From: Thunnus maccoyii
Lineage: Eukaryota > Chordata > Actinopteri > Scombriformes > Scombridae
Length of the DNA stretch: 64,000 nt
Reading direction: 5' to 3'
Assembly (NCBI RefSeq): GCF_910596095.1
Contig: NC_056554.1
Location: 6,983,501-7,047,500 of the forward strand
The position numbers and the translations under genes are program-made. The notes beneath the pieces are model-generated. The model did not search any database and was not told the DNA's origin. It saw only the letters and a list, made by a program, of their open reading frames with translations. Numbering within the stretch: position 1 is the stretch's first letter; each line of letters begins with the position of its first letter. Positions 25,199 through 60,400 of the stretch are shown in pieces.

Positions 25199-26299
25199 GC
25201 ATGCTGTATATTATTATGATGATACTGATAGCAGTCTAGTGAGTTAACTAATGTTAGCTAGCTAGCTTCTATAACAATACTTTTATGATACTGATAGCAA
25301 ACATTAGCTAAGTTAGCTCGATAGTGTAACAATATTATAGCCTATATGATAGCACAATGCAGTGACTCATATTGAAAGATTCTCTTCTTTTCATGAATTG
25401 GAACGTGTAACATATTTGAGTCTAGCCTCAGATTCAAGAGTTTCACTTTACTCCTCAATCCAGACACACATGCTGGGTGGTGATACAAATAGTGTAATGT
25501 TACAAAATACAATGGTTTCATATGGTAACTTATTCTGTCTTTGCAAATAGTTGGAATTAACCTTAGCTAGTTACTAAGCCAGTCTTGGATTGAGTTTGTT
25601 AGCTAGCTACAATGTTGAAAAAGTAATGGCCAGACTGTTTGTGTGTTTGGTGTGAGGAAATAGCCAGATCAGGCTCTCCTTGATTTCCCCAAGGCATGTT
25701 ATGAACTGTTGGCTGTACGTTTGTTAGCATCCTGTGTCTTTGTGTGAGGCTTACTATCAATGTATTATCAGATTGTGGCACATGCAAGATTACACCTTTT
25801 TTTTCCAAATTGAACAATTACCAAAAAGGAGGACCATCCACACGTCAACTCCAAGCAAGAGACCTGGAATGGAATGCCTTTTCAGGCTCTCTCTACCGTA
25901 TCACCATCCACTGACTCACCATCAGATAGGTAAGGAATGCTGAATTCTTAGAATGTCACTTCTCCAAGTTGCTGCATATGATAAGTACACAGGTCAAATG
26001 GTTGAAATGTGTTTTACAAAGACGACTGCTTTCGGGAGCCTGGAATTGAAGACCTTTCCATGGCAGTACAAGTGCCTCATGCCAGCCACCAAGCTAATGC
26101 ATATGTAATGGTAAGTTAACGTTATGTAATAGAAATGGTTATAATGGTTTATAGTTAACGTCACTTGAGGCTATTTCATTAGAATGAAATGACATAACAT
26201 GAATATAACTTTAATACATTACCTCATACGTGAACATGTTTTCGCCTCTCTTCTTTCCTTCTTCTGTCTGAGTCTCGTCAGATCGATTTCCATCGGCAA

Positions 26300-26395
26300 T
26301 GGTGGTTGTTTAACAATGAAGACAAAAACTCCCATGATCCCACACTACTTTAAGATGTCATCAAACTCAAGCAACAGAAATTAGCCTAAATACCG
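26300..26395 (+). repeat. Dispersed repeat, partner of the 54.9-kb insertion
   Basis: This copy contains TTTAACAATGAAGACA, AACTCCCATGATCCCAC and ATGTCATCAAACTC in the same order as the minus strand of 54892-54965. It may be the right end of a larger element starting near 24655, where another sequence I associate with teleost repeats begins. Confidence 0.55.
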
Positions 26396-44898: not shown

Positions 44899-47565
44899 TC
44901 AGAGCTCAGTCTTCTTTCTTTTTTTCTTCTTCTCTTCTTTTCCCTCCTTGTGGAAGACTTTCCCATCAGGCTGTTCTCTCCACTTCAGGGCGACTCCACT
45001 CACTCCTTGCTCCTTCAGTCTGTCCTGCAACTGGGAAACACAAATGGAAGCCATTTTGAAACATTCATCCCCTCTATTTTGTTGTTGTTGTGTCTAAGAA
45101 ACCCCACTGGTTTTTAGATATCATCAAACTTCATAATGGCAAAACACAGCAAGCAGAATAAGCATGTAAACAAGTATTCTAGACCAGTTTGAGACACCCT
45201 CAGCCCCCATCCCAGTCTGGATTTTGGAGACTTGCCTTTTTCAGGATGTCTGCTTTCACAGCAGGGTCATTGAGATCCACGGAGGAGTCCTGCACCTTCA
45301 TCCTCAGGTTAACTACCCGCCTCTTTACTGGTGTTGAGACACATAACAAGAGGAGAAATGAATCATTAATTGGCTGTCGTAGTTAGTTCTATGATATCTG
45401 ATTCATTACAACAAATGAGCACATTCTTTCTGTGTACATTCAAACATGATTTATGCTAAAGTTACGCAGCATTCCAGGGCTCGACGTTGTGTTTTCGAGG
45501 CACTTGTCCTTCAGACGAGTAAATTTACCTGTCACTAGTCCAGGTACAAAAGTAACTTGTCTGGGTAAAAATAGCTATAATTTACAAGGAAACACTTGAA
45601 ATCATCCAAACAGTTTCAACATATAAATGATTCAGTTTATGAATTTTATTAAAGCCATTACTTCCCTGCTAATGATCTTTTTATTTGACCTTGAATTGCG
45701 AAGCACTTTGTAAAGTCTGATTTAATATGAACTCAATAGATTAATCACTGATCATGCTTCTGATGTTTAATAATGATGATTGACAGGGTTCCCCCTAAGA
45801 TTTTTTTTCAGGAGGGTTGGTAGGACCCCTGAAACTACTAGTTTTGTCATGAGGCAGGTATGTCATGGATTTTGTTTATATTTGAATAACAAATTGTGCT
45901 TAAAATATGTACAGATCAGTGTCTCATCTACAGGTGTAGGTCACACCCAACCAGTTTTTTCTGTCTCCTGCTTTGAATTTGTTCATATCTCTCCATCACC
46001 TGACGACTGGGCTGCCTCTGTGTTTCTCTTTCCTCCTTAAACTTTTTCTTCCTTCTTGAATCAGTTCTTTACTTCCTCCTTGTTTTTCTTTCAACATCAT
46101 TAACGTTACATCCTGCGATTCTTCCTCACTTCTGTCTCCTCTCTCCTGATTCCTTCATGAAGCAGAACTTTAACTTGTATGATGTTAATCACAGTAATTA
46201 TGGACAAACGACACACAGTGGGAATGCATCAGTAGTCCAGTTATCCAAACTATCAGCTACATTAACATTACTGTAATGTAAAGCAGCAGCACCTGATAAA
46301 CTGGATGGTTAAAACAACACTTATGTCAATTTTAAAAACTTTAGCTTCACTGAAGAGCTGTTTTAGCTATTTACTTTGTTGTCTTTTGTCTGACATTAAT
46401 TATTTGATGCTGCACTTGTCAGTTAGTGTCATATATGATCCTCTTGACTGATTCACTCATCTGTCTCATGAAAGCAGCTCCAGTCTGCCTGCTAGCTTCA
46501 ACACGGAGGGTTTGTTTGTTTTGAAAACCTGCGTAGCAGGAGCTGGTGGTGGTTTGTTGGTCCATGTCAACAGTAACAGTCGTCTCCGTGTCTCAAACGG
46601 GGATACAGTGTTCAAAACAAGCGCTCCTGCGGTAGGAGGCCAGTCTGAGTTTACAGCTGTAATGTGATGAAAGTTTGTGTAAATGCTGTTTCTGAATTTG
46701 AGAAAGTTTCTCTTCCACTTGCCCTATTAAAAATCCAATTGTCCCGGACAAGCAGACAAGCCTTAATGTCGAGCCCTGCGTTCTCTGGCTTCTACTGAAG
46801 GACAGTAAACTACTCACCAGGAGGGATGCTGTAGCAGACAAATGGAAATCTCTTTTTACAGGACATAAATGTCCATTGGTTTGATTCCTGCACACCACAC
46901 ATCATTTTCATCAGTGATTCTGAAGCTGAGCCATTCCATCTGGTGAACGAGTAGTCACTACCATCAGACCAGTTAATGTCAGGATCTCTGTACAGGCCAA
47001 TCCAGACCAGACTCTTATTACCAGCAGATGAAACTGTGTTGATGAGTTGGTTCATATCTTCAGTGTTTTCAATGGTGACCAGGTCTGTGTATGTCTTTCT
47101 GCAGTACATCTGAGCTTCAGTCCAATTCATGGGTTTATCAACAAAGTGGTACTGAAGGAGACGACATGTGGAGAAGATGGACCAGCCTGTGAGCCCTGTG
47201 AGGAAAACACCACTTTTTAACATGTAAGGTGGCTCTAACATTTTTTTGAGTATTACAGTATAATGAAATAATATGACTGCTTCTGGCAGACAACAACAAC
47301 ACTGACACATGCACAAAGGGCATATGACGCAGTTGACTGCCGACCAAATGAAATGGACCGTTGCCTTGATTAAAATTATGCATTTCTTTGAGTTTGAACA
47401 TTGTTGGAAACATTTGGGATAATGTAAGTACACAACTCAATAAAATATATAACATAGGTCTAGTCGTTTTTAGACATCATAATGCAGAAAAGTTTTATAT
47501 TATACCTTTTAAATATTTCACTGACCTGAGAGATACAGGACACCCAGCAAGAACCTTTCCATCAT
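44899..47565 (-). CDS. Secreted single-domain C-type lectin-like protein, 213 residues, four exons (copy 1)
   Basis: Reading the minus strand, the coding exons are 47565-47526, 47195-46818, 45327-45236 and 45030-44899. They total 642 bases with phases 1, 1 and 0 and give an uninterrupted 213-residue protein. Exon 1 starts with two Met codons and, with the start of exon 2, encodes a signal peptide (MMERFLLGVLYLSG, cleavage likely near residue 22). The CTLD spans about residues 24-137. It shows WIGL at 78-81, the WSDG turn at 89-92 and the disulfide cysteines C45, C113, C126 and C134, with C24 extra. There is no EPN/QPD or WND motif: the equivalent is QWTFMSC, so calcium-dependent sugar binding is unlikely. 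N37, N73, N88 and N101 are N-glycosylation sequons. Residues 140-213 form a tail found in other fish CTLD proteins (SSVDLNDPAV, LKWREQPDGK), ending in KKKKRKKTEL. There is no transmembrane segment. The last intron has a GC donor. A role in innate immunity is inferred from the family only. Confidence 0.88.
45475..46778. mobile_element. hAT-like non-autonomous element in the lectin intron (copy 1)
   Basis: The element is bounded by CAGGGCTCGAC at 45475 and its inverted complement GTCGAGCCCTG ending at 46778. It sits between exons 2 and 3 of the 213-residue gene. The termini resemble a common teleost hAT-like family. No transposase frame is visible, and I could not find a clean 8-bp target duplication. 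Family assignment is by recognition. Confidence 0.6.
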
Positions 47566-47634
47566 GATGCTGCTCTGAGGCTTCTATGTGCCGAGGTTCA
47601 CGCCAAAAAAGAAACTCTAATATTAGGTAAATCT

Positions 47635-47642
47635 ATGCAAAT
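47635..47642 (-). promoter_or_regulatory. Octamer (ATTTGCAT) upstream of the 213-residue lectin gene
   Basis: A perfect octamer, read ATTTGCAT on the coding strand, lies about 70 bp upstream of the first Met codon. It is a known POU/Oct-factor site in immune promoters. It is kept in copy 2 and destroyed in copy 3. No TATA box is evident. Function is inferred. Confidence 0.35.
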
Positions 47643-47867
47643 TCAACACCACAAGTCACTGTTCTGCTGCATGCTATATGCAAAAAGTATTGTCATGCAT
47701 GTAAAGGTTTATCTCTTAAACATTGTCATGTACCCACAGTGCAATTTTGAGGCTGCGTTTTGTTCAGAGTCACACTTTGGTTGTGTATATTTTATTTCTC
47801 ACTTACCTCCAGTCGTATCTAGCATGCAGAGTTTTAGTTGTATTTGTCTTTATGTTCTGAGATTTCT

Positions 47868-48042
47868 GCCTTCTATACAGTAGAGGCGAATGAAATTTTT
47901 GTTTGTTTTTTGGTGCTCACAGTGTTGAAAAAGTGGCATTCAGATAAGTCAGCAGCAACATCTCCCTCTGGAGTCTTCATTACTCTGGACAGAATTCACT
48001 GTGATCAGTTTTCATTTGGACTATTTCTTCAGTAGAAAGTAA
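47868..48042. repeat. Dispersed repeat upstream of the lectin gene (copy 1)
   Basis: The segment TACAGTAGAGGCGAATGAAA ... GTGCTCACAGTGTTGAAAAAG ... CTCTGGAGTCTTCATTACTC resembles a teleost interspersed repeat. Its first part also matches 62545-62620 (ACAGAGGTGAATGGATTTTC ... GATGCTCACAGCATTC). The duplicated copy lies at about 55973-56150. Confidence 0.5.
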
Positions 48043-48233
48043 ATGAAAAGTCAAAAAGCAAGAGAAAAGTAGAGAAAGAGGAAAAATACTTCCTGAAAGT
48101 GTGTGATTTGATAGAAATTTCTGATCAAGGTTAAATATGTGTGAAAAATGACAATATGTATAAGTGAAAGGCTCAACAGACTTCCTGCTGCCTCAAGGCA
48201 ACAATATGCAGTAAAGTAGTGGTAGGCAAATAC

Positions 48234-48276
<43 letters not shown>

Positions 48277-48286
48277 TACACACACA
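48234..48286. repeat. (AT)n microsatellite inside duplication copy 1
   Basis: AT run with one ATGT interruption, ending in a short CA run. The matching site in copy 3 (about 56310-56350) is much shorter. Confidence 0.96.
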
Positions 48287-48880
48287 AATCAGATGAAGTT
48301 GAAGTGGGTATAATGTTGCATTTTTGAGATGGGACACACCTTCAGGAAGTGGAGCCACATGTAGTACAGTGCTAGAAAAGGGTCAGATATATTTGACTGT
48401 ATAACACCTTGAAATCAAGATAACCTTTAAAAAAATACAAGCATGTGCATTCATCACTAAAATAATTGAAATGATGGTTTAAAGACTATTTTAAAAGATT
48501 ATTTTTTCTGAGCTGTGATTTTTCATGTGTTGCCCGAGGCATAATTAGACAGTTAGTGTAAATGTTAAGACATTCTAAATGATGATGATGTATTATTGTG
48601 TAAAATGATGATGCGGTTAATGTTTTTGCTATCTACTACTCACTGGCAATAACGGACACAAGTACATTTTATGGTCTAAAGTGTGGAATAGATGCATACA
48701 AATATATTGTATTTCTTATTCAAAGTGCAGAAAGTGTGATGTCCATCTCTGGTTTACCAACAAACTCAAGTGCTTCCTAAGATTCCACACAGGATGAGAC
48801 ACCAGAAAATGAAGTTGGAGGCTTTTAAGAACAAAACAAAAAAAAAGAATGTTTACATAAAGAAAAGGATGTACATGTAC

Positions 48881-49390
48881 AGTGAGATCCAAAGTCTGAG
48901 ACCACTACTCAAAATACTTCTATTTTGCATTTGTTTCGATTGTAATACTATTTCTTTCATTACAAATGATAATATCAGCTTAACAATTTGAGTGAAAAGT
49001 TTCATCTTTGAAAAATGTACATGAATATCAGAATATCTTAGTATTTCCCCTCTTTTGCTTTAATGACAACATGCACTCGAGCTGGCATGGACTCCACAAG
49101 TTTGTGCAAAACCTGATGACCCACATTATCCCAGCAGGATTTGACAACATTCCAAAAAGCAAGGTTGAGGTCAGGTGACTGTGGAGGAAAGTCCATGACA
49201 GTCAGGACTCCTTTGGTCTTCTTTGGTCTTCAAGCAGTTCTTGCAAAGCTTTGAGGCGTGTTTGGGATCATTATCCTGCTGCAGTATGAATCCTTCTCCA
49301 CAAAGATGCAAACCAGAGAGTACAGCATGTCTCTGAAGAATGGAGTGGTACTTCTCCAACATTAAGATTGATATATAATGTGTGTTCATG
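48881..49390 (-). pseudogene. Dead Tc1-like transposase fragment (copy 1)
   Basis: Minus-strand frames show the end of a Tc1/mariner transposase. FILQQDNDPKHASKLC is the block around the second catalytic Asp, and after a frameshift comes PPQSPDLNLAFWNVV. The shift falls in a duplicated AAGACCAAAG stretch near 49210-49230. The catalytic Glu of the usual PDLNPIE block is absent. A C-terminal frame ends near KAKEGKY at about 49040. A terminal repeat-like sequence (CAGTGAGATCCAAAGTCTGA) lies at 48881-48900. The N-terminal DNA-binding part is missing, so the element is inactive. Confidence 0.75.
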
Positions 49391-49653
49391 TGTGTGTGTG
49401 TGTGTCTACGTCATTCACTGTCCCTCGATGTGACATATTGATACATATTGGCAGCAAGATATTTCCATCTTCCATCTGTCCATCTGTCCATCCATCTTCC
49501 CACCCAATAAATGACACCATTTAGGCAGATTTTATCCAATAAAAGCAGGACTATGTGTCATGTTGGGATGTGAACCCATAACTGTGTGTCTGTTGCTTTT
49601 ATCAGGTTGCTTCACACACTGTAAACTTGAAGCCAAAGACTTATCTCATATGT

Positions 49654-49659
49654 TTTATT
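49654..49659 (-). terminator. Poly(A) signal of the two-domain lectin gene
   Basis: AATAAA on the minus strand at the same relative position (about 180 bp past the stop) as in copy 1. Confidence 0.5.
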
Positions 49660-49836
49660 TGGAAGAAAACTGAATTTCATTGAAACACTTCACACAGTAA
49701 TATTGATGAGGAAGGATAAAACTCTTCTATACAGGATTTAGTAAAGGTTATGGTTAAGCTGATGATGGTATATTGTTAGCAGATAGAGAATCAACATTCA
49801 ACATGGATTACAGATAAGTAAAGCTGGCTTTTAATT

Positions 49837-52800
49837 TCAGAGCTCAGTCTTCTTTCGTTTTTTCTTCTTCTCTTCTTTTCCCTCCTTGTGGAAGACTTTC
49901 CCATCAGGCTGTTCTCTCCACTTCAGGGCGACTCCACTCACTCCTTGCTCCTTCAGTCTGTCCTGCAACTGGGAAACACAAATGGAAGCCATTTTGAAAC
50001 ATTCATCCCCTCTATTTTGTTGTTGTTGTGTCTAAGAAACCCCACTGGTTTTTAGACATTATCAAACTTCATAATGGCAAAACACAGCAAGCAGAATAAG
50101 CATGTAAACAAGTATTCTAGACCAGTTTGAGACACCCTCAGCCCCCAACCCAGTCTGGATTTTGGAGACTTGCCTTTTTCAGGATGTCTGCTTTCACAGC
50201 AGGGTCATTGAGATCCACGGAGGAGTCCTGCACCTTCATCCTCAGGTTAACTACCCGCCTCTTTACTGGTGTTGAGACACATAACGAGAGGAGAAATGAA
50301 TCATTAATTGGCTGTCGTAGTTAGTTCTATGATATCTGATTGATTACAACAAATGAGCACATTCTTGCTGTGTACATTCAAACATGATTTATGCTAAAGT
50401 TACGCAGCATTCCAGGGCTCGACATTGACTTTTCAAGGCACTTGTCCTTCAGACGAGTAAATTTACCTGTCACTTGTCCAGGTACAAAAGTAACTTGTCT
50501 GGGTAAAAATAGCTATAATTTACAAGGAAACACTTGAAATCATCCAAACAGTTTCAACATATAAATGATTCAGTTTATGAATTTTATTAAAGCCATTACT
50601 TCCCTGCTAATGATCTACCAGTTTTGTCATGAGGCAGGTATGTCATGGATTTTGTTTATATTTGAATAACAAATTGTGCTTAAAATATGTACAGAACAGT
50701 GGCTCATCTACAGGTGTAGGTCACACCCAACCAGTTTTTTCTGTCTCCTGCTTTGAATTTGGGAAATGATCTTTTTATTTGATCCTGAATTGTGAAGCAC
50801 TTTGTAAAGTCTGATTTAATATGAACTCAATAGATTAATCACTGATCATGCTTCTGATGTTTAATAATGATGATTGACAGGGTTCCCCCTAGGATTTTTT
50901 TTCAGGAGGGTTGGTAGGACCCCTGAAACTACTAGTTTTATCACGAGGCAGGTATGTCATGGATTTTGTTTATATTTGAATAACAAATTGTGCTTAAAAT
51001 ATGTACAGATCAGTGGCTCATCTACAGGTGTAGGTCACACCCTACGGGTTTTTTCTGTCTCCTGCTTTGAATTTGTTCATATCTCTCCATCACCTGACGC
51101 CTTGGCTGCCGCTGTGTTTCTCTTTCCTCCTTAAACTTTTTCTTCCTTCTTGAATCAGTTCTTTACTTCCTCCTTGCTTTTCTTTCAACACCATTAACGT
51201 TACATCCTGCAATTCTTCCTCACTTCTGTCTCCTCTCTCCTGATTCAGCAGAACTTTAACTTGTATGATGTTAATCACAGTAATTATGGACAAACGACAC
51301 ACAGTGGGAATGCATCAGTAGTCCAGTTATCCAAACTATCAGCTACATTAACATTACTGTAATGTAAAGCAGCAGCACCTGATAAACTGGATGGTTAAAA
51401 CAACACTTATGTCAATTTTAAAAACTTAAGCTTCACTGAATAGCTGTTTTAGCTATTTACTTTGTTGTCTTTTGTCTGACATTAATTATTTGATGCTGCA
51501 CTTGTCAGTTAGTGTCATATATGATCCTCTTGACTCTGATTCACTCGTCTGTCTCATGAAAGCAGCTCCAGTCTGCCTGCTAGCTTCAACACGGAGGGTT
51601 TGTTTGTTTTGAACACCTGCGTATCTCAAACGGGATACAGTGTTCAAAACAAGCGCTCCTAGAAGCTACAACTAACTGTGGTAGGAGGCCAGTCTGAGCT
51701 TGCAGCTGTAATGTGATGAAAGTTTGTGTAAATGCTGTTTCTGAATTTGAGAAAGTTTCTCTTCCACTTGCCCTATTAAAAATCAAATTGTCCCGGACAA
51801 GCAGACAAGCCTTAATGTCGAGCCCTGCGTTCTCTGGCTTCTACTGAAGGACAATAAACTACTCACCAGGGATGCTGTAGCAGACAAATGAAAATCTCTT
51901 TTCACAGGACATAAATGTCCATTGGTTTGATTCCTGCACACCACACATCATTTTCATCAGTGATTCTGAAGCTGAGCCATTCCATCTGGTGAACGAGTAG
52001 TCACTACCATCAGACCAGTTAATGTCAGGATCTCTGTACAGGCCAATCCATAGCCACCTTTCACTCGGCACCACCTTGTTAGCCTCCTTGTTCTCAGTGT
52101 CGTTCCTCACAGTGGCCAGGTCTATGAAGTTCTCCCTGCAGTACCTCCGAGCACTGGACCAGTTCATTCTTTGATTCACAAAAACAAATTCAGGATCCAG
52201 CTGTGTTCCTACAGTTAAGTTATTGGGGGAAAAATGAATCTTTGAGTTGAAGTCCTAAACTTCAATATAATCATTATTAGAGAAGAAATAATGCTTTGCT
52301 TAGTGCTTACCATTATAACAGGTGAAAATATTTTGACCTTGGCAGAAATCATCCCACCATAACTGATCTTTAGCTCTACTCACTGCACAGAATTCATGAG
52401 CCCTTAAATCTGGTTCTTTGGGTGCCCAGTTCCTATATTCAGCCCCACTCCCTCTGTACCCATCTGACCACTTCCAATCAAAGACTCTGTACAGGCCAAT
52501 CCAGACCGGACTCTTATTACCAGCAGATGAAACCTTGTTGATGAGTTGGTTCATATCTTCAGTGTTTTCAATGGTGACCAGGTCTGTGTATGTCTCTCTG
52601 CAGTAGGTCTGAGCTTCAGTCCAATTCATGGGTTTATCAACAAAGTGGTACTGAAGGAGACGACATGTGGAGAAGATTGACCAGCCTGTGAGCCCTGTGA
52701 GGAAAACACCACTTTTTAACATGTAAGGTGGCTCCAACATTTTTTTGAATATTACAGTATAATGAAATAATATGACTGCTTCTGGCAGACAACAACAACA

Positions 52801-53064
52801 CTGACACATGCACAGAGGGCATATGACGCAGTTGACTGCCGACCAAATGAAATGGACCGTTGCCTTGATTAAAATTATGCATTTCTTTGGGTTTGAACAT
52901 TGTTGGAAACATTTGGGATAATGTAAGTACACAACTCAATAAAATATATAACATAGGTCTAGTCGTTTTTAGACATTATAATGCAGAAAAGTTATATATT
53001 ATACCGTTTAAATATTTCACTGACCTGAGAGATACAGAACACCCAGCAAGAACCTTTCCATCAT
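49837..53064 (-). CDS. Secreted two-domain C-type lectin-like protein, 329 residues, five exons (copy 2)
   Basis: Minus-strand coding exons are 53064-53025, 52694-52311, 52208-51867, 50265-50174 and 49968-49837. They total 990 bases with all junctions in phase, giving 329 residues without a stop. Exon 1 encodes the same signal peptide start as copy 1. Exon 2 is CTLD1 (about residues 23-141), with WIGL, WSDG, a KEPD sequence where EPN would sit, and WWDDFC in place of the WND site, so a calcium site is at best partial. Exon 3 is CTLD2 (about 142-254), preceded by a 102-bp intron. It starts GTQLDPEFVFVNQRMNW and ends QWTFMSC...FVCYSIP, with no calcium motif. Exons 4 and 5 encode the same 74-residue tail with a Lys/Arg-rich end. 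This is the least rearranged copy and probably resembles the ancestral gene. Ligand and tissue are unknown. Confidence 0.88.
50413..51827. mobile_element. hAT-like element in the lectin intron (copy 2)
   Basis: The same CAGGGCTCGAC terminal repeats flank this intronic element. It is about 110 bp longer than copy 1, largely because a roughly 145-bp piece (50619-50763) repeats material found again at about 50930-51075. Other small gaps partly offset the gain. Confidence 0.6.
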
Positions 53065-53133
53065 GATGCTGCTCTGAGGCTTCTATGTGCCGAGGTTCAC
53101 GCCAAAAAAGAAACTCTAATATTAGGTAAATCT

Positions 53134-53141
53134 ATGCAAAT
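53134..53141 (-). promoter_or_regulatory. Octamer (ATTTGCAT) upstream of the two-domain lectin gene
   Basis: The same octamer sits at the same distance (about 70 bp) upstream of the start codon as in copy 1. In copy 3 the matching bases read GCAAAT after AGGC (near 55725), so the octamer is lost there. Confidence 0.35.
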
Positions 53142-53213
53142 TCAACACCAAAAGTCACTGTTCTGCGGCATGTTATATGCAAAAAGTATAGTCATGTACG
53201 TAAATGTTTGTCT

Positions 53214-53582: not shown

Positions 53583-54488
53583 TTTTGTTTATATTTGAAA
53601 AACAGATTGTGCTTAAAATATGTACAGAACAGTGGCTCATCTACAGGTGTAGGTCACACCCTACGGGTTTTTTCTGTCTCCTGCTTTGAATTTGTTCATA
53701 TCTCTCCATCACCTGACGACTGGGCTGCCTCTGTGTTTCTCTTTCCTCCTTAAACTTTTTCTTCCTTCTTGAATCAGTTCTTTACTTCCTCCTTGTTTTT
53801 CTTTCAACACCATTAACGTTACATCCTGCAATTCTTCCTCACTTCTGTCTCCTCTCTCCTGATTCCTTCATGAAGCAGAACTTTAACTTGTATGATGTTA
53901 ATCACAGTAATTGTGGACAAACGACACACAGTGGGAATGCATCAGTAGTCCAGTTATCCAAACTATCAGCTACATTAACATTACTGTAATGTAAAGCAGC
54001 AGCACCTGATAAACTGGATGGTTAAAACAACACTTATGTCAATTTTAAAAACTTAAGCTTCACTGAATAGCTGTTTTAGCTATTTACTTTGTTGTCTTTT
54101 GTCTGACATTAATTATTTGATGCTGCACTTGTCAGTTAGTGTCATATATGATCCTCTTGACTCTGATTCACTCGTCTGTCTCATGAAAGCAGCTCCAGTC
54201 TGCCTGCTAGCTTCAACACGGAGGGTTTGTTTGTTTTGAACACCAGCAGGGGCTGGTGGTGGTTTGTTGGTCCATGTCAACAGTAACAGTCGTCTCCGTG
54301 TCTCAAACGGGGATACAGTGTTCAAAACAAGCGCTCCTGTGGTAGGAGGCCAGTCTGAGCTTGCAGCTGTAATGTGATGAAAGTTTGTGTAAATGCTGTT
54401 TCTGAATTTGAGAAAGTTTCTCTTCCACTTGCCCTATTAAAAATCCAATTGTCCCGGACAAGCAGACAAGCCTTAATGTCAAGCCCTG
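53583..54488. mobile_element. hAT-like element, left-truncated (copy 3)
   Basis: Only the right part survives, ending in AAGCCCTG at 54488 (one change from the other copies). The left terminus and the adjoining lectin tail exons are missing, so the duplication breakpoint lies inside this element. Confidence 0.55.
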
Positions 54489-54527: not shown

Positions 54528-55636
54528 CAGGAGGGATGCTGTAGCAGACAGATGGAAATCTCTTTTTACAGGACATAAATGTCCATTGGTTTGATTCCTG
54601 CACACCACACATCATTTTCATCAGTGATTCTGAAGCTGAGCCATTCCATCTGGTGAACGAGTAGTCACTACCATCAGACCAGTTAATGTCAGGATCTCTG
54701 TACAGGCCAATCCAGACCAGACTCTTATTACCAGCAGATGAAACTGTGTTGATGAGTTGGTTCATATCTTCAGTGTTTTCAATGGTGACCAGGTCTGTGT
54801 ATGTCTCTCTGCAGTAGGTCTGAGCTTCAGTCCAATTCATGGGTTTATCAACAAAGTGGTACTGAAGGAGACGACATGTGGAGAAGATGGATGGATGGCG
54901 GAGTTTGATGACATGGTGAAGTAGCGTGGGATCATGGGAGTTGTTGTCTTCATTGTGAAACAACTACCATTGCAGTCATTGCAGTCAGCTTCTCCTGGTT
55001 AGGATTCCTTCAGTGTTCAGCGTTCATGAGGTTTTTACCAGGAGCCGAATTATCCACAGAGGTGTCCTCCTCTCCAAAACAAACGGACCCAGTGGTTAAA
55101 ACCAGTAAAAAGACCGAATAAAGCAGTCTCACATTAAATATCTGTGTTTCTCCCACGCTGTTCAGCAGACACGACAGCCAGTGGAGCTGTGAGCCAAGCT
55201 GCTGCCAACGTTTGCTCAGCTTGTTTTTCCGATAACTTAAGATCCAGACTAAAATCCAGTTAAAAGATATAGTTTAAAAACGACCAAGATCTAAAAAGTA
55301 TATTGTAAAAATGTGACTTAAAACTGAATAAAAAAGTAAATTTATGACAGCTTCTTGTGGACAACCACAACACTGACATTCGCAGAAAGGGCATATGATG
55401 CCGTTGGCTGCCGACCAAATGAAATGGACCGTTGTCTTGATTAAAATTACAGATTTCTTTTGAGTTTGAACATTGTTGGAAACATCTGGGATAATGTAAG
55501 TGCATAACTCAACAAAATATATAACATAGGTCTAGCCATTTTAAGACATTATAATGCAAAAAAGTTACATATTATATCTTTAAATATTTCACTGACCTGA
55601 GAGATACAGGACACCCAGCAAGATCCTTTCCATCAT
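54528..55636 (-). pseudogene. Broken C-type lectin-like gene (copy 3)
   Basis: The signal-peptide exon is intact (55636-55597, MMERILLGVLYLSG, good GT donor). A CTLD exon from about 54891 to 54528 is almost identical to exon 2 of the 213-residue gene, including WIGL, the sequons and the CCTCCTG/GTGAGT donor. Its first ~24 bases and the splice acceptor are gone: at about 54892 the homology stops and unrelated repeat sequence begins, running to about 55340. A frame stays open leftward from a TTG at 54963, but a stop codon lies immediately upstream of it and no acceptor there would match the phase of exon 1. The two tail exons present in the other copies are also missing, because the duplicated block starts inside the intron at about 53583. 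I therefore call it a pseudogene. Use of a distant 3' exon or a new acceptor cannot be excluded. Confidence 0.72.
54892..55260. repeat. Dispersed repeat inserted in the broken lectin gene
   Basis: This segment replaces the region holding the CTLD exon acceptor in copy 3. Its inner part, read on the minus strand (AACTCCCATGATCCCAC, then ATGTCATCAAACTC), matches 26311-26375 on the plus strand with few differences. It is therefore a dispersed element present at least twice in the window. I recognise it as a high-copy teleost repeat but cannot name the family. Confidence 0.65.
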
Positions 55637-55972
55637 GACGCTGCTCTGAGGTCTCTTTGTGTCAATGTTCACTTTTAAAAGGAAATTCTACCCCTGTATT
55701 AGCTGTTCTTAGGCAAATCTAGGCAAATTCAACGCCCCCGTGTCTTCTTTGTCACTGTTCTGCTTAATTCTATATGCATTAAGTATTGTCAGGTATGTAA
55801 ATGTTTGTTTCCAAAACATTGTCATGTACCCACAGTGCAGTTTTGAGGCTGTGTGTTGTTCAGAGTCACACTTTGTAGTGTATATTTTTTTTCTCATTTA
55901 TCTCCAGTCGTATCTAGCATGCATGTTTCAATTGTATTTGTCTTTATGTTTTTCTGAGATTTCTGCCTTCTA

Positions 55973-56150
55973 TACAGTAGAGGCGAATTAATTTTTTGTT
56001 TGTTTGTTTGTTTTTTTGGTGCTTACAGTGTTGAAAAAGTGGCATTCAGATAAGTCAGCAGCAACATCACCCTCTGGAGTCTTTATTACTCTGGACAGAA
56101 TTCACTGTGATCAGTTTTCATTTGGACTATTTCTTCAGTAGAAAGTAGTT
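55973..56150. repeat. Dispersed repeat upstream of the lectin gene (copy 3)
   Basis: This is the counterpart of 47868-48042 carried along in the segmental duplication, with an expanded GTTTGTTTGTTTG stretch near 56000. Confidence 0.5.
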
Positions 56151-56737
56151 CCGATGATACCTGTTCACAGAGAGGCTGGGCTTGATGTTTGAAATGTTTA
56201 AATGTGGTTTGCACCTCTAATGAGTCCAATGTGTATATACATCAGATGAAAAGTCAAAAAGCAAGAAAAAGGTAGGGAAAGAGGAAAAATAAATATAATG
56301 AATAAGCACACACACACACAGAGTATATATATACTGTGTTTGTAAATATACAGCAGGAACTCTGTTGAGCCTCTCACTTATACATATTGTAATTTTTCAC
56401 ATCCTAAACCTTGATCAGAAATTTCTATCAAATCAGATGAAGTTGAAGTGGGTATAATGTTACATTTTTGGGGTTGGACACACTTTCAGGCATAATTAGA
56501 CAGTTAGTGTAAATGTTAAGACATTCTAAATGATGATGATGTATTATTGTGTAAAATGATGATGCGGTTAATGTTTTTGCTATCTACTACTCACTGGCAA
56601 TAACGGACACAAGTACATTTTATGGTCTAAAGTGTGGAATAGATGCATACAAATATATTTTATTTCTTATTCAAAGTGCAGAAAGTGTGATGTCCATCTC
56701 ATCAAAAAGAATGTTTACATAAAGAAAAGGATGTACA

Positions 56738-57253
56738 TGTACAGTGGGATTCAAGTCTTAGACCACTAGTCAAAATACTTCTATTTTGCATTTGTTTCGA
56801 TTGTAATACTATTTCTTTCATTACAAATAAGATAACATCAGCTTAACAATTTGAGTGAAAAGTTTCATCTTTGAAAAATGTACATGAATATCAGAATATC
56901 TTAGTATTTCCCCTCTTTTGCTTTAATGACAACATGCACTCGAGCTGGCATGGACTCCACAAGTTTGTGCAAAACCTGATGACTCACATTATCCCAGCAG
57001 GATTTGACAACATTCCAAAAAGCAAGGTTGAGGTCAGGTGACTGTGGAGGAAAGTCCATGACAGTCAGGACTCCTTTGGTCTTCTTTGGTCTTCAAGTAG
57101 TTCTTGCAAAGCTTTGAGGTGAGTTTGGGATCATTATCCTGCTGCAGTATGAGTCTTTCTCCACAAAGATGCAAACCAGAGGGTACAGCATGTCTCTGAA
57201 GAATGGAGTTGTACTTCTCCAACATTAAGATTGATATATAATGTGTGTTCATG
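56738..57253 (-). pseudogene. Dead Tc1-like transposase fragment (copy 3)
   Basis: This is the duplicated counterpart of the fragment at 48881-49390. It has the same minus-strand QQDNDPK block, the same AAGACCAAAG duplication with frameshift, and the same end. A few substitutions separate the two (LTSKLC here, HASKLC there). The shared lesion shows that the element was already dead before the block was duplicated. Confidence 0.75.
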
Positions 57254-57434
57254 TGTGTGTGTGTGTGTCTACATCATTCACTGTCCCTCGATGTGACATA
57301 TTGATACATATTGGCAGCAAGATATTTCCATCTTCCATCTGTCCATCTGTCCATCCATCTTCCCACCCAATAAATGACACCATTTAGGCAGATTTTATCC
57401 AATAAAAGCAGGACTATGCGTCATGTCGGAATGT

Positions 57435-60400
57435 GAACAATGCAAAAAGCCTGGTTTTAATAGACAACTACTGACCTCTTTACAAACAGATTAAAAATAA
57501 ATTCAGAAACCATCTGGACAACATACTTACAGTACCAGTAATGCAAACTTCACAGCTGACCGAGCAATATAACAAAATTGGATGCAGCAATCATAAACTG
57601 TACTCTAACAGCCACAAAATATATCCAAGCACAGTTCACAGCACCTCCATGGCCGTAGGGCAGCAGTTCATATTTGCTGGTTAAATATTATATCACATAA
57701 TTTTCAATAATGAATTACCCTCTAAAGCCCTTTTCAGACATGTAACACATAACATTGTTGGCTTCATCTGTCTGGTAAGATAATGGTTTTTCATGTCATT
57801 CAGACATTGATGTCTAAATAAGAGAAGAGGGTTCTTGCTTCTCTTAATCACTGATGGATTTTCTATTGAAGCCTTAATTAATGACCATTGTGAGCACTGT
57901 GCTTTTCACAATGACTGCACTAATACATTTTCTCATCAGTTTCATCATTTATTAGATAGGAAACTGTGTTTAGTTGAAATATGTCTGACAGCATGTAGGC
58001 ATAGACTGACAAGACGTTAAGTTGGGACTCCTCTTTGTTTCCTATTTGCTGTATGGAAACATTTATTCATAATTTCATCTAAAAGGAGGGAGTGCAGGTC
58101 AGATTGTAAGTATTTTTTAAATGTACCTCTTTTGCCCACACCATGAAGGTAAAGAAGACCAGGGGTCTACAGCCACGCTAGCAGCTCCGTGAGACTTCTA
58201 ATGTCAGCATACTAACATGCTCACAGTGACAATGCTAAGATGCTGATGTTAAGCAGGTATGATATTGACCATGTTCATCTTAGTTTAAAATGATAGCCCG
58301 CTAACATTTGCTAATTAGCCCCAAACACAAAGTACAGTTGAGTCTGAAATGTCATTGGACTTGCAAGTATTCAGTCATAAATCATCCACAAGTATTGAAC
58401 ATTTTTAATTTTAACTTCATGATCATGCTAGATGAAAGTCGAGTTTGTACCGAATTACACGGCACACAGTCTAACAGCTGATGCGATATATCGCTCACAA
58501 CCACTATAGTAAAACCTCCTGGTGATGAAAAGCCAGTGGATAACCAAAGTCAGACATTCATCCTCTGGAGAGTATGAATGTCTGAACAAAAGGGATTTTG
58601 CTAGCTGTACCTTCAAGACTAGAGAGTCAGCTGTTCACAAGCAAAAAAAATCAGAAAATCAAACATGAAAGACAAACAGTAAATAACCATGGACAACATG
58701 GGAAAAGATCTAAATGAAGATATAAAATTTCCTTCTGTTTGGCAGCCGACACTCAGTTTCCCTGAATTCAACTCCAAGGAAGAATTATAAAAGCAGGCCT
58801 GCCTGCAACTGCATTAGTAGAGAGGTTGGAAATCAATCTCCAAAGTTAGCGCGCATTGGAAAATGGTCAGCACTGATGTGAAGTATATGTGATTTGTAGT
58901 TAGCGGACTAAAATGTAGAAAACTGCCAGTATGGTCTTTTAAGCTAATAACCCCTTTGAGAGGCGTCCTTGTCAATCTCAAGCCCATAATCCATCTGTGT
59001 GCTCTGAATGGCTTCTATATTATTCATGGAAAAGTTTCCCTGTTCCTTTAAGGTAATTTATTTTCGTCATTCAATGCGAGTTTCTGCTTGGGTTTATTTT
59101 AGTGGCCTCAGTAGGAAGTATTTCTGTGGGAGCAGACTCTTTATTGTGTTTTAAATATACTATATAAATGTGGACTTATATAAACTGTGTATGGCCAAAA
59201 AACATGGCAAAACATGCCAAATAACATTCCTAAAGCAAATTTTATGAAAAAAAAAAAATCCTTCACCATCGAGGAACATGATTTATATTTTGTGGGTAAC
59301 ATTTTGAGGCTATGTAGATTAGCTATTTGGCAAAATAACTGGTAATAAACAAGAAAAATTGTAAATGGTGCTTTCTTCATTGGTTATGCACTCCACAATG
59401 ACTTCTAACATTTGCCAAGTCACACCCAGGCTTGTTGCCCAGTGCCCTTGCTTCAGAAAGTAATCCTTCCCTTCAAAGTCAAGCATTTACCAGGGAAGCA
59501 CATGGTCAGAATTGTAAATAAATCATCAAGTTAGGACCAGACGTCCCACCAGGAGGAAGCCACACACATCTAGCGGTAAATGATTGGTGTGTGTCTAAGC
59601 CAGACTCCTATAGAGGAGGTAAGCGGGCTACTGATGAATGCGCGTCTGTGGTTTAATGAAGTGTGTTTATTACCGAGTGATCAGTGGTTAACGGACAGAC
59701 CTCCCCTGGCAATATACTAAGAGGACATTACCACAGACACAGGGAGCAAGAGGAGGGAGACTAATGTAAGGAAATCGTGAGGAACAGACAGAGAGAAATG
59801 AAAAGGTATAATGACAGAAAGGGAAGGAAGAAGAAAGTAGAAGAAAAGTGGGGAGAAAAAAAGCTGGAAAAGTGTCTAAAATAGGTCATAATATCATCAT
59901 ACTCAGAATACAATATCATCTAGCATTACAACTCACCAGAAATCACACACATACACACTGTCAGCTCGTCACTTTCAGTTTTCATAGTTCATTTATGTAC
60001 AAGCAGTGCTGGGAGTTCCTCTCAAGGTCATCTTAATAGACTTTTGCTTTCACACTCGCACTCACTCACACAGCCATATACTACCTCCCGATGCCATAAA
60101 TCACATTCACACACACGCACATCCATCACTGAGAGCGAGTCAGAGTGACAAATAATACCTCCAACAATAGGTCCTATTCATCAATATGGCCATATGTTTT
60201 TCAACAGTGAAAAATGTCGAAATAATGGACCAAAACGTATTCAAAACAAATATGCATGACAAATGTTTGAGAAACTTCATCACAGCCCAAATTGAAGCTG
60301 ACTATTTCTGGCAGCGGGAAGCCATAAATGTTGTATTTCATATAGCTGAGTTCTGTGCTACGTACACTCAAATAAAACATATCTACCCTGAGAGTTGCAG

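Follow-up and report, generated by a model that had tools for sequence, protein, structure and literature searches.

The window analysed here, 64,000 nucleotides of Thunnus maccoyii DNA (contig NC_056554.1, positions 6,983,501 to 7,047,500), carries lectin genes arranged in tandem on the minus strand. Copy 2 encodes two C-type lectin-like domains (CTLD1 and CTLD2) in five exons and 329 amino acids. Copy 1 encodes a single CTLD in four exons and 213 amino acids, with start, splice sites, frame and stop all kept, and copy 3 is a broken gene. In copy 1 the one CTLD exon follows CTLD1 of copy 2 as far as a WIGLYR motif and CTLD2 from there on, and the same junction is present in copy 3. Very probably, a two-domain gene underwent one in-frame deletion between short stretches of identical sequence (microhomology), giving a hybrid domain that was then duplicated.

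The exchange point within the WIGLYR codons

Comparison of the window with itself by BLAST pairs 46627-47004 with 51676-52050 and 46986-47714 with 52485-53213. Within copy 1 these blocks have exactly 19 bp in common (46986-47004), and this 19-mer is found at two sites in copy 2 (52032-52050 and 52485-52503) and at 54696-54714 in copy 3. On simple alignment copy 1 is identical to CTLD1 at 184/191 positions upstream of the motif and to CTLD2 at 96/191; downstream the corresponding figures are 91/168 and 162/168. Informative sites, counted as CTLD1:CTLD2, pass from 91:3 to 1:72 in a cruder alignment, and a codon-guided scan of copy 1 with 158 such sites gave 70:1 before the break and 0:87 after it. 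The sites that bound the break, 47005 and 46985, immediately flank the 19-bp repeat. The maximum chi-squared value of 154 was reached in 0 of 5000 permutations, the highest permuted value being 17.8.

A preliminary description of this DNA, made from the sequence alone, had proposed a switch from CTLD1 to CTLD2 inside the WIGLY codons, within a 19-bp sequence common to both domains, and would have been abandoned had a nucleotide alignment failed to show a shift of best match there. The shift falls exactly at these codons, although the shared motif is longer than described, WIGLYR rather than WIGLY, and the BLAST overlap and the bracketing sites agree in placing the switch within the 19-mer. The further proposals that copy 1 is intact and that the broken copy 3, which lacks the exon start and the 3' exons, carries the same hybrid are likewise upheld.

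The CTLD1 and CTLD2 exons of copy 2 agree at 39/111 aligned amino acids and 171/333 aligned nucleotides, and the 19-mer is the sole exact match of at least 9 bp between them. The spacing of the two sites, 52485 - 52032 = 453 bp, is made up of 351 coding bases, a number divisible by 3, and the 102-bp intron, as had been noted. The accompanying statement that this equals the length difference did not hold: between the CTLD exon totals there is a difference of 348, three bases short of 351, since the exon of copy 1 carries an additional codon at its far end, near the donor (SIPP versus SIP). The CCTCCTG end is found again in copy 3, and certain other tuna proteins, among them P0002 and P0005, have the additional codon as well; it is hence uninformative on the origin of the hybrid.

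Relatives and the parent form

In three protein searches there were 727, 205 and 28 hits, of which the best 120, 120 and 28 were used, corresponding to 172 distinct proteins (identified here by P numbers); the counts below refer to these listed relatives. Profiles for the four half-domains, namely the N- and C-terminal halves of CTLD1 (1N, 1C) and of CTLD2 (2N, 2C), were built from 25 non-Thunnus proteins with no window sequence included. The candidates were 87 proteins with two WxG motifs, from which 53 failed the boundary pattern and nine labelled as Thunnus were left out. Copy 2 reads 1N-1C-2N-2C with these profiles, and copies 1 and 3 read 1N-2C. The N-half of copy 1 scores 112.6 bits as 1N versus 46.6 as 2N, and its C-half 63.9 bits as 2C versus 18.9 as 1C.

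The order 1N-1C-2N-2C is found in 123 of the 172 relatives, many labelled as non-tuna species, and pure 1N-2C in four (P0122, P0158, P0162 and P0171). We therefore take the two-domain gene to be the parent form, the direction of change first proposed. When the halves of the hybrid were compared with copy 2 and the 171 proteins other than P0122, both scored best against copy 2 (57/61 and 53/55), with P0121 tying for the C-half; the whole of P0121, which bears the label Thunnus maccoyii, occurs without a single difference inside the copy 2 protein. Of the eight top matches in one of the protein searches, one bears the label Scomber scombrus and the other seven the label Thunnus, so that the nearest relatives indicate a tuna.

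WIGLYR is present in both domains in 9/12 Thunnus-labelled two-domain proteins and in 0/111 of the others, and so the tuna lineage seems, from these protein sequences, to carry a better-matched repeat. Among the 111, CTLD1 most often has WIGLYS (50/111) and CTLD2 has WIGLFR (39) or WIGLYR (36), the motif being unmatched in CTLD1 of two proteins and in CTLD2 of eight.

The preliminary description had also suggested looking for the hybrid form in related fish. P0122, labelled T. albacares and named snaclec stejaggregin-B subunit beta-1-like, is the same 1N-2C hybrid, 97% identical over 141 amino acids, and is the only one of the 172 proteins with the junction seen in the window. It is annotated as an open hybrid beginning MMERFLLG. 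It differs in that the annotated model ends at SIPPGE, which corresponds to reading through the exon donor site of the window, and has no tail exons. A lysine following the cysteine of MSC is common to copies 1 and 3 and P0122, the same position being E or G in 17/17 other tuna or tuna-like sequences matched, P0121 included; this shared residue favours a single origin of the hybrid over repeated origin.

The remaining three pure 1N-2C proteins, from Scophthalmus maximus (P0158), Stegastes partitus (P0162) and Oreochromis (P0171), are single-CTLD models that score as the hybrid does but differ from it in the position of the switch. This lies at WSDG in P0158, is ragged in P0162, where WSDG occurs twice, and in P0171 falls just before WIGLYR as far as can be told, with a weak 2C score of 23 bits. 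Known as protein models only, they are possibly independent fusions or, for some, gene-model or splicing artefacts. In P0160, P0163, P0166 and P0168 a 1N half followed by a weak 2C lies inside longer models.

Other irregular models were noted. CTLD1 ends at WIG or WIGLY in P0123 and P0141, and part or all of 1C is missing from P0026, P0072, P0133 and P0153; these were considered as possible RNA-level switches. Models P0048, P0122 (Thunnus-labelled), P0155 and P0156 end in SIPPGE, in some cases then WFTVLQWKPENAA, and P0157 has a similar ending, SIPGECFTVLQW... Such endings, as if the donor of the last CTLD exon had been read through, possibly represent a short isoform lacking the basic tail.

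Origin and nature of the hybrid domain

The events can be pictured as follows. A fish lectin gene with two CTLDs, of the copy 2 type, would have lost 453 bp between the identical 19-bp stretches that encode WIGLYR, likely by repair or slippage between the short repeats. Loss between short direct repeats that merges tandem domains in frame is a known kind of process. Here it would have taken out everything from the C-half of CTLD1 through the 102-bp intron to the N-half of CTLD2; since the frame (351 coding bases) and both outer splice junctions are kept, a gene with unchanged first exon and tail but a single hybrid CTLD would remain. Tandem duplication would then have carried the hybrid to copies 1 and 3, a step supported by the shared lysine, and the new protein is predicted to present the ligand face of CTLD2 on a CTLD1 scaffold.

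The translated product retains the marks of a CTLD. Pfam PF00059 matches copy 1 with 54.3 bits against a cut-off of 22.6, and copy 2 with 100.3 bits in two stretches. The four core cysteines (in YC, MMC, MSC and VC) can be read in the hybrid sequence. For the hybrid exon, AlphaFold (18 rows) gave a model with a mean predicted local distance difference test score (pLDDT) of 66.6 and a predicted template-modelling score (pTM) of 0.63; for native CTLD2, modelled with the same 17 companion rows, the values are 68.7 and 0.65. The fusion looks slightly worse than the parent domain in these predictions, neither model being strong. The best 50 rows of a Foldseek comparison with the PDB consist of venom C-type lectin-like proteins, lithostathine, mannose receptor CRD-4, CL-K1 and similar, some of them CTLDs. 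Template-modelling scores of 0.59-0.65 by query length are in keeping with the C-type fold, at high root-mean-square deviation (rmsd).

The WIGL motif is located in strand beta-2 of the CTLD core. With the switch placed immediately before the long loop, it is the ligand-binding half that is replaced. EPD and WWDD are present in CTLD1 of copy 2, and neither is present in the hybrid. In the two-domain relatives the pattern [EQ]P[DNS] occurs in 80/123 C-halves of CTLD1 and 0/123 C-halves of CTLD2 (first ten residues per half excluded), and WxD in 101/123 and 15/123, respectively. EPN/QPD-type and WND motifs have a role in canonical Ca-dependent sugar-binding CTLDs, according to the part of PMC7618208 consulted; the hybrid sequence contains neither an EPN/QPD-type motif nor WND, and thus lies outside that class. 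The EPD/WDD-type motif is lost from the hybrid, and on sequence grounds binding may be affected.

It is possible, if on balance not probable, that the hybrids are decaying leftovers, with copy 3 broken and copy 1 perhaps unexpressed. Copy 3 lacks the exon start and tail exons, and the hybrid exons of copies 1 and 3 differ by 3.5 non-synonymous and 0.5 synonymous changes, in which, few as they are, there is no sign of constraint. Copy 1, however, is open from start to stop with its splice sites, and P0122 is an annotated open hybrid. Compared with the matching parts of copy 2, copy 1 has 5.5 synonymous and 6.5 non-synonymous changes, again few, with proportions of synonymous and non-synonymous differences (pS and pN) of 0.042 and 0.013.

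Unequal crossover of two tandem two-domain genes, CTLD1 with CTLD2, is an unlikely source; it would produce the hybrid together with a reciprocal gene reading 1N-1C-2N-1C-2N-2C. The genes are in tandem, and a relative with three CTLDs does exist in Scomber (P0001), but exact homology at the exchange point is just 19 bp, in exons that are 51% identical. P0001 was rejected as the reciprocal product since it reads 1N-1C-2N-2C-2N-2C, a duplication of CTLD2. P0012 of Nibea, the only listed protein in which a 2N is followed by a 1C, was rejected also, the tail-exon residues between its halves indicating that it probably consists of two merged gene models. Both halves of the hybrid point to the same parent type, with which two near-identical parents would still be compatible.

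An ancestral single CTLD, with copy 2 gaining the 453-bp inner segment by insertion, is most improbable: the three copies alone give no direction, but the two inner halves of copy 2 score as 1C followed by 2N, as they do in most of the relatives, and the halves of copy 1 score clearly as 1N and 2C. Equally little can be said for reads collapsed at the 19-bp repeat during assembly, for although near-identical tandem copies are difficult to assemble, the junction stands in two copies each with its own private changes (13 in copy 1, nine in copy 2 and six in copy 3 over 1066 sites of the 3' part), and P0122, encoded on a 27.6-Mb contig, argues against an assembly slip.

Against deletion followed by duplication, and against a well-formed product, must be set several points besides the lack of constraint between copies 1 and 3. 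In principle these repeats could have produced the junction on two separate occasions. Near the last cysteine P0122 has SVC in common with copy 3 but RFS in common with copy 2, so that the history is not a clean tree, and three copies without an outgroup do not fix the order of events. The deletion is deduced from proteins and copy 2, the window being the only DNA considered. The PDB superpositions of the hybrid model have rmsd values of about 5 to 11 Å, and 39/125 residues of the hybrid fall under pLDDT 50, mainly 68-97 just past the junction; in native CTLD2 22/113 do so, in the same region.

The array and its place among fish lectins

The features of the three copies are listed in Table 1. 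Splice sites in copies 1 and 2 are GT-AG except for the GC donor after the 92-bp exon, the GC-AG intron (AAAAAG/gcaagt) being found at 45231-45248 in copy 1 and 50169-50186 in copy 2. An intron of copy 2 contains a 147-bp direct repeat (50615-50761 and 50929-51075, 95% identical) with a single counterpart in copy 1 at 45835-45981.

Table 1. Features of the lectin gene copies in the window.
Feature	Position	Strand	Basis
Copy 1 exon 1 (MMERFLLGVLYLSG)	47526..47565	-	GT donor, open frame; signal-peptide-like by eye
Copy 1 hybrid CTLD exon (CTLD1 N-half and CTLD2 C-half), 378 bp	46818..47195	-	AG/GT flanks, Pfam Lectin_C E 2.6e-14, breakpoint scan
Copy 1 19-bp junction, WIGLYR codons	46986..47004	-	Self-BLAST, 19-mer location, breakpoint scan
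Copy 1 92-bp tail exon, GC donor AAAAAG/gcaagt	45236..45327	-	Splice/frame reading
Copy 1 last exon with stop codon	44899..45030	-	Splice/frame reading
Copy 2 exon 1, signal-peptide-like by eye	53025..53064	-	Splice/frame reading
Copy 2 CTLD1 exon	52311..52694	-	Frame reading, Pfam, half-domain profiles
Copy 2 intron between CTLD1 and CTLD2, 102 bp	52209..52310	-	Splice reading
Copy 2 CTLD2 exon	51867..52208	-	Frame reading, Pfam, half-domain profiles
19-bp repeat in CTLD1 of copy 2	52485..52503	-	19-mer location, breakpoint scan
19-bp repeat in CTLD2 of copy 2	52032..52050	-	19-mer location, breakpoint scan
453-bp segment missing from hybrids (one 19-mer, CTLD1 C-half, intron, CTLD2 N-half)	52051..52503, or equally 52032-52484	-	Self-BLAST
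Copy 2 92-bp tail exon, GC donor	50174..50265	-	Splice/frame reading
Copy 2 last exon with stop codon	49837..49968	-	Splice/frame reading
Copy 3 hybrid CTLD exon, cut at 5' end; same 19-bp junction at 54696-54714	54528..54889	-	Self-BLAST, alignment
Copy 3 exon 1-like sequence (MMERILLG...) in more diverged 5' half	55597..55636	-	Start and donor resembling copies 1 and 2

In copy 3 the 5' end of the hybrid exon is replaced by other sequence, the acceptor present in copies 1 and 2 is missing, and the tail-exon sequences of those copies were not found in it, the homology block starting at 53583. At the broken end, 54901-54973 matches 26296-26368 in inverted orientation (73 bp, 90% identity) and is thus a repeat dispersed in the window, which may be linked to the damage. 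The hybrid exon lies within a block 97.7% identical to copy 1, and on the exon 1/intron 1 side 54/440 aligned sites are private to copy 3, which is itself a mosaic. Further upstream the similarity is patchy (55343-56147 with 47272-48041 and 56488-57438 with 48537-49575), about 86% in one block and 97-99.5% in those that follow, a pattern pointing to a mosaic origin or to gene conversion within the array.

The tuna locus offers a natural half-domain swap with the parent type beside the product and the exchange point placed to within 19 bp, at the border of the ligand-binding half of a CTLD. It shows how one step can suffice to exchange such a half, and is suited to testing whether a long loop moved to the scaffold of another domain folds and binds there. 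More speculatively, and with a good deal of doubt, the codons from WIGL to WSDG may be a site of repeated exchange in fish lectins with tandem CTLDs: strongly conserved between the domains and close before the long loop, the stretch would let deletions swap whole ligand-binding halves in frame. Were this so, the tuna gene would be the one case seen in DNA, with the models from turbot, damselfish and tilapia counting as additional, independent ones.

No report of a CTLD half-domain hybrid or of these tuna genes was found among the best-ranked titles and abstract openings listed from the open PubMed Central (PMC) literature. The nearest known system is group F1, the fish dual-CTLD proteins (FDC-F1 to F7 and FTCP), characterized in the part consulted of Zelensky and Gready (2004, PMC514892) as soluble proteins with two or three CTLDs. 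According to the same part, they were first taken for mannose-receptor fragments, and the present names of the tuna proteins suggest likewise; some that are named snaclec or L-selectin belong to a family of the dual-CTLD type. Copy 2 resembles group F1 in having two CTLDs, a link made by architecture. Copy 1, although apparently derived from this type, has one CTLD and so falls outside the group, of which that part of the account mentions no single-CTLD member. What would be new, judged from the sequences, is a single CTLD composed of halves of two, with the parent type adjacent to it and a second tuna-labelled record of the same hybrid.

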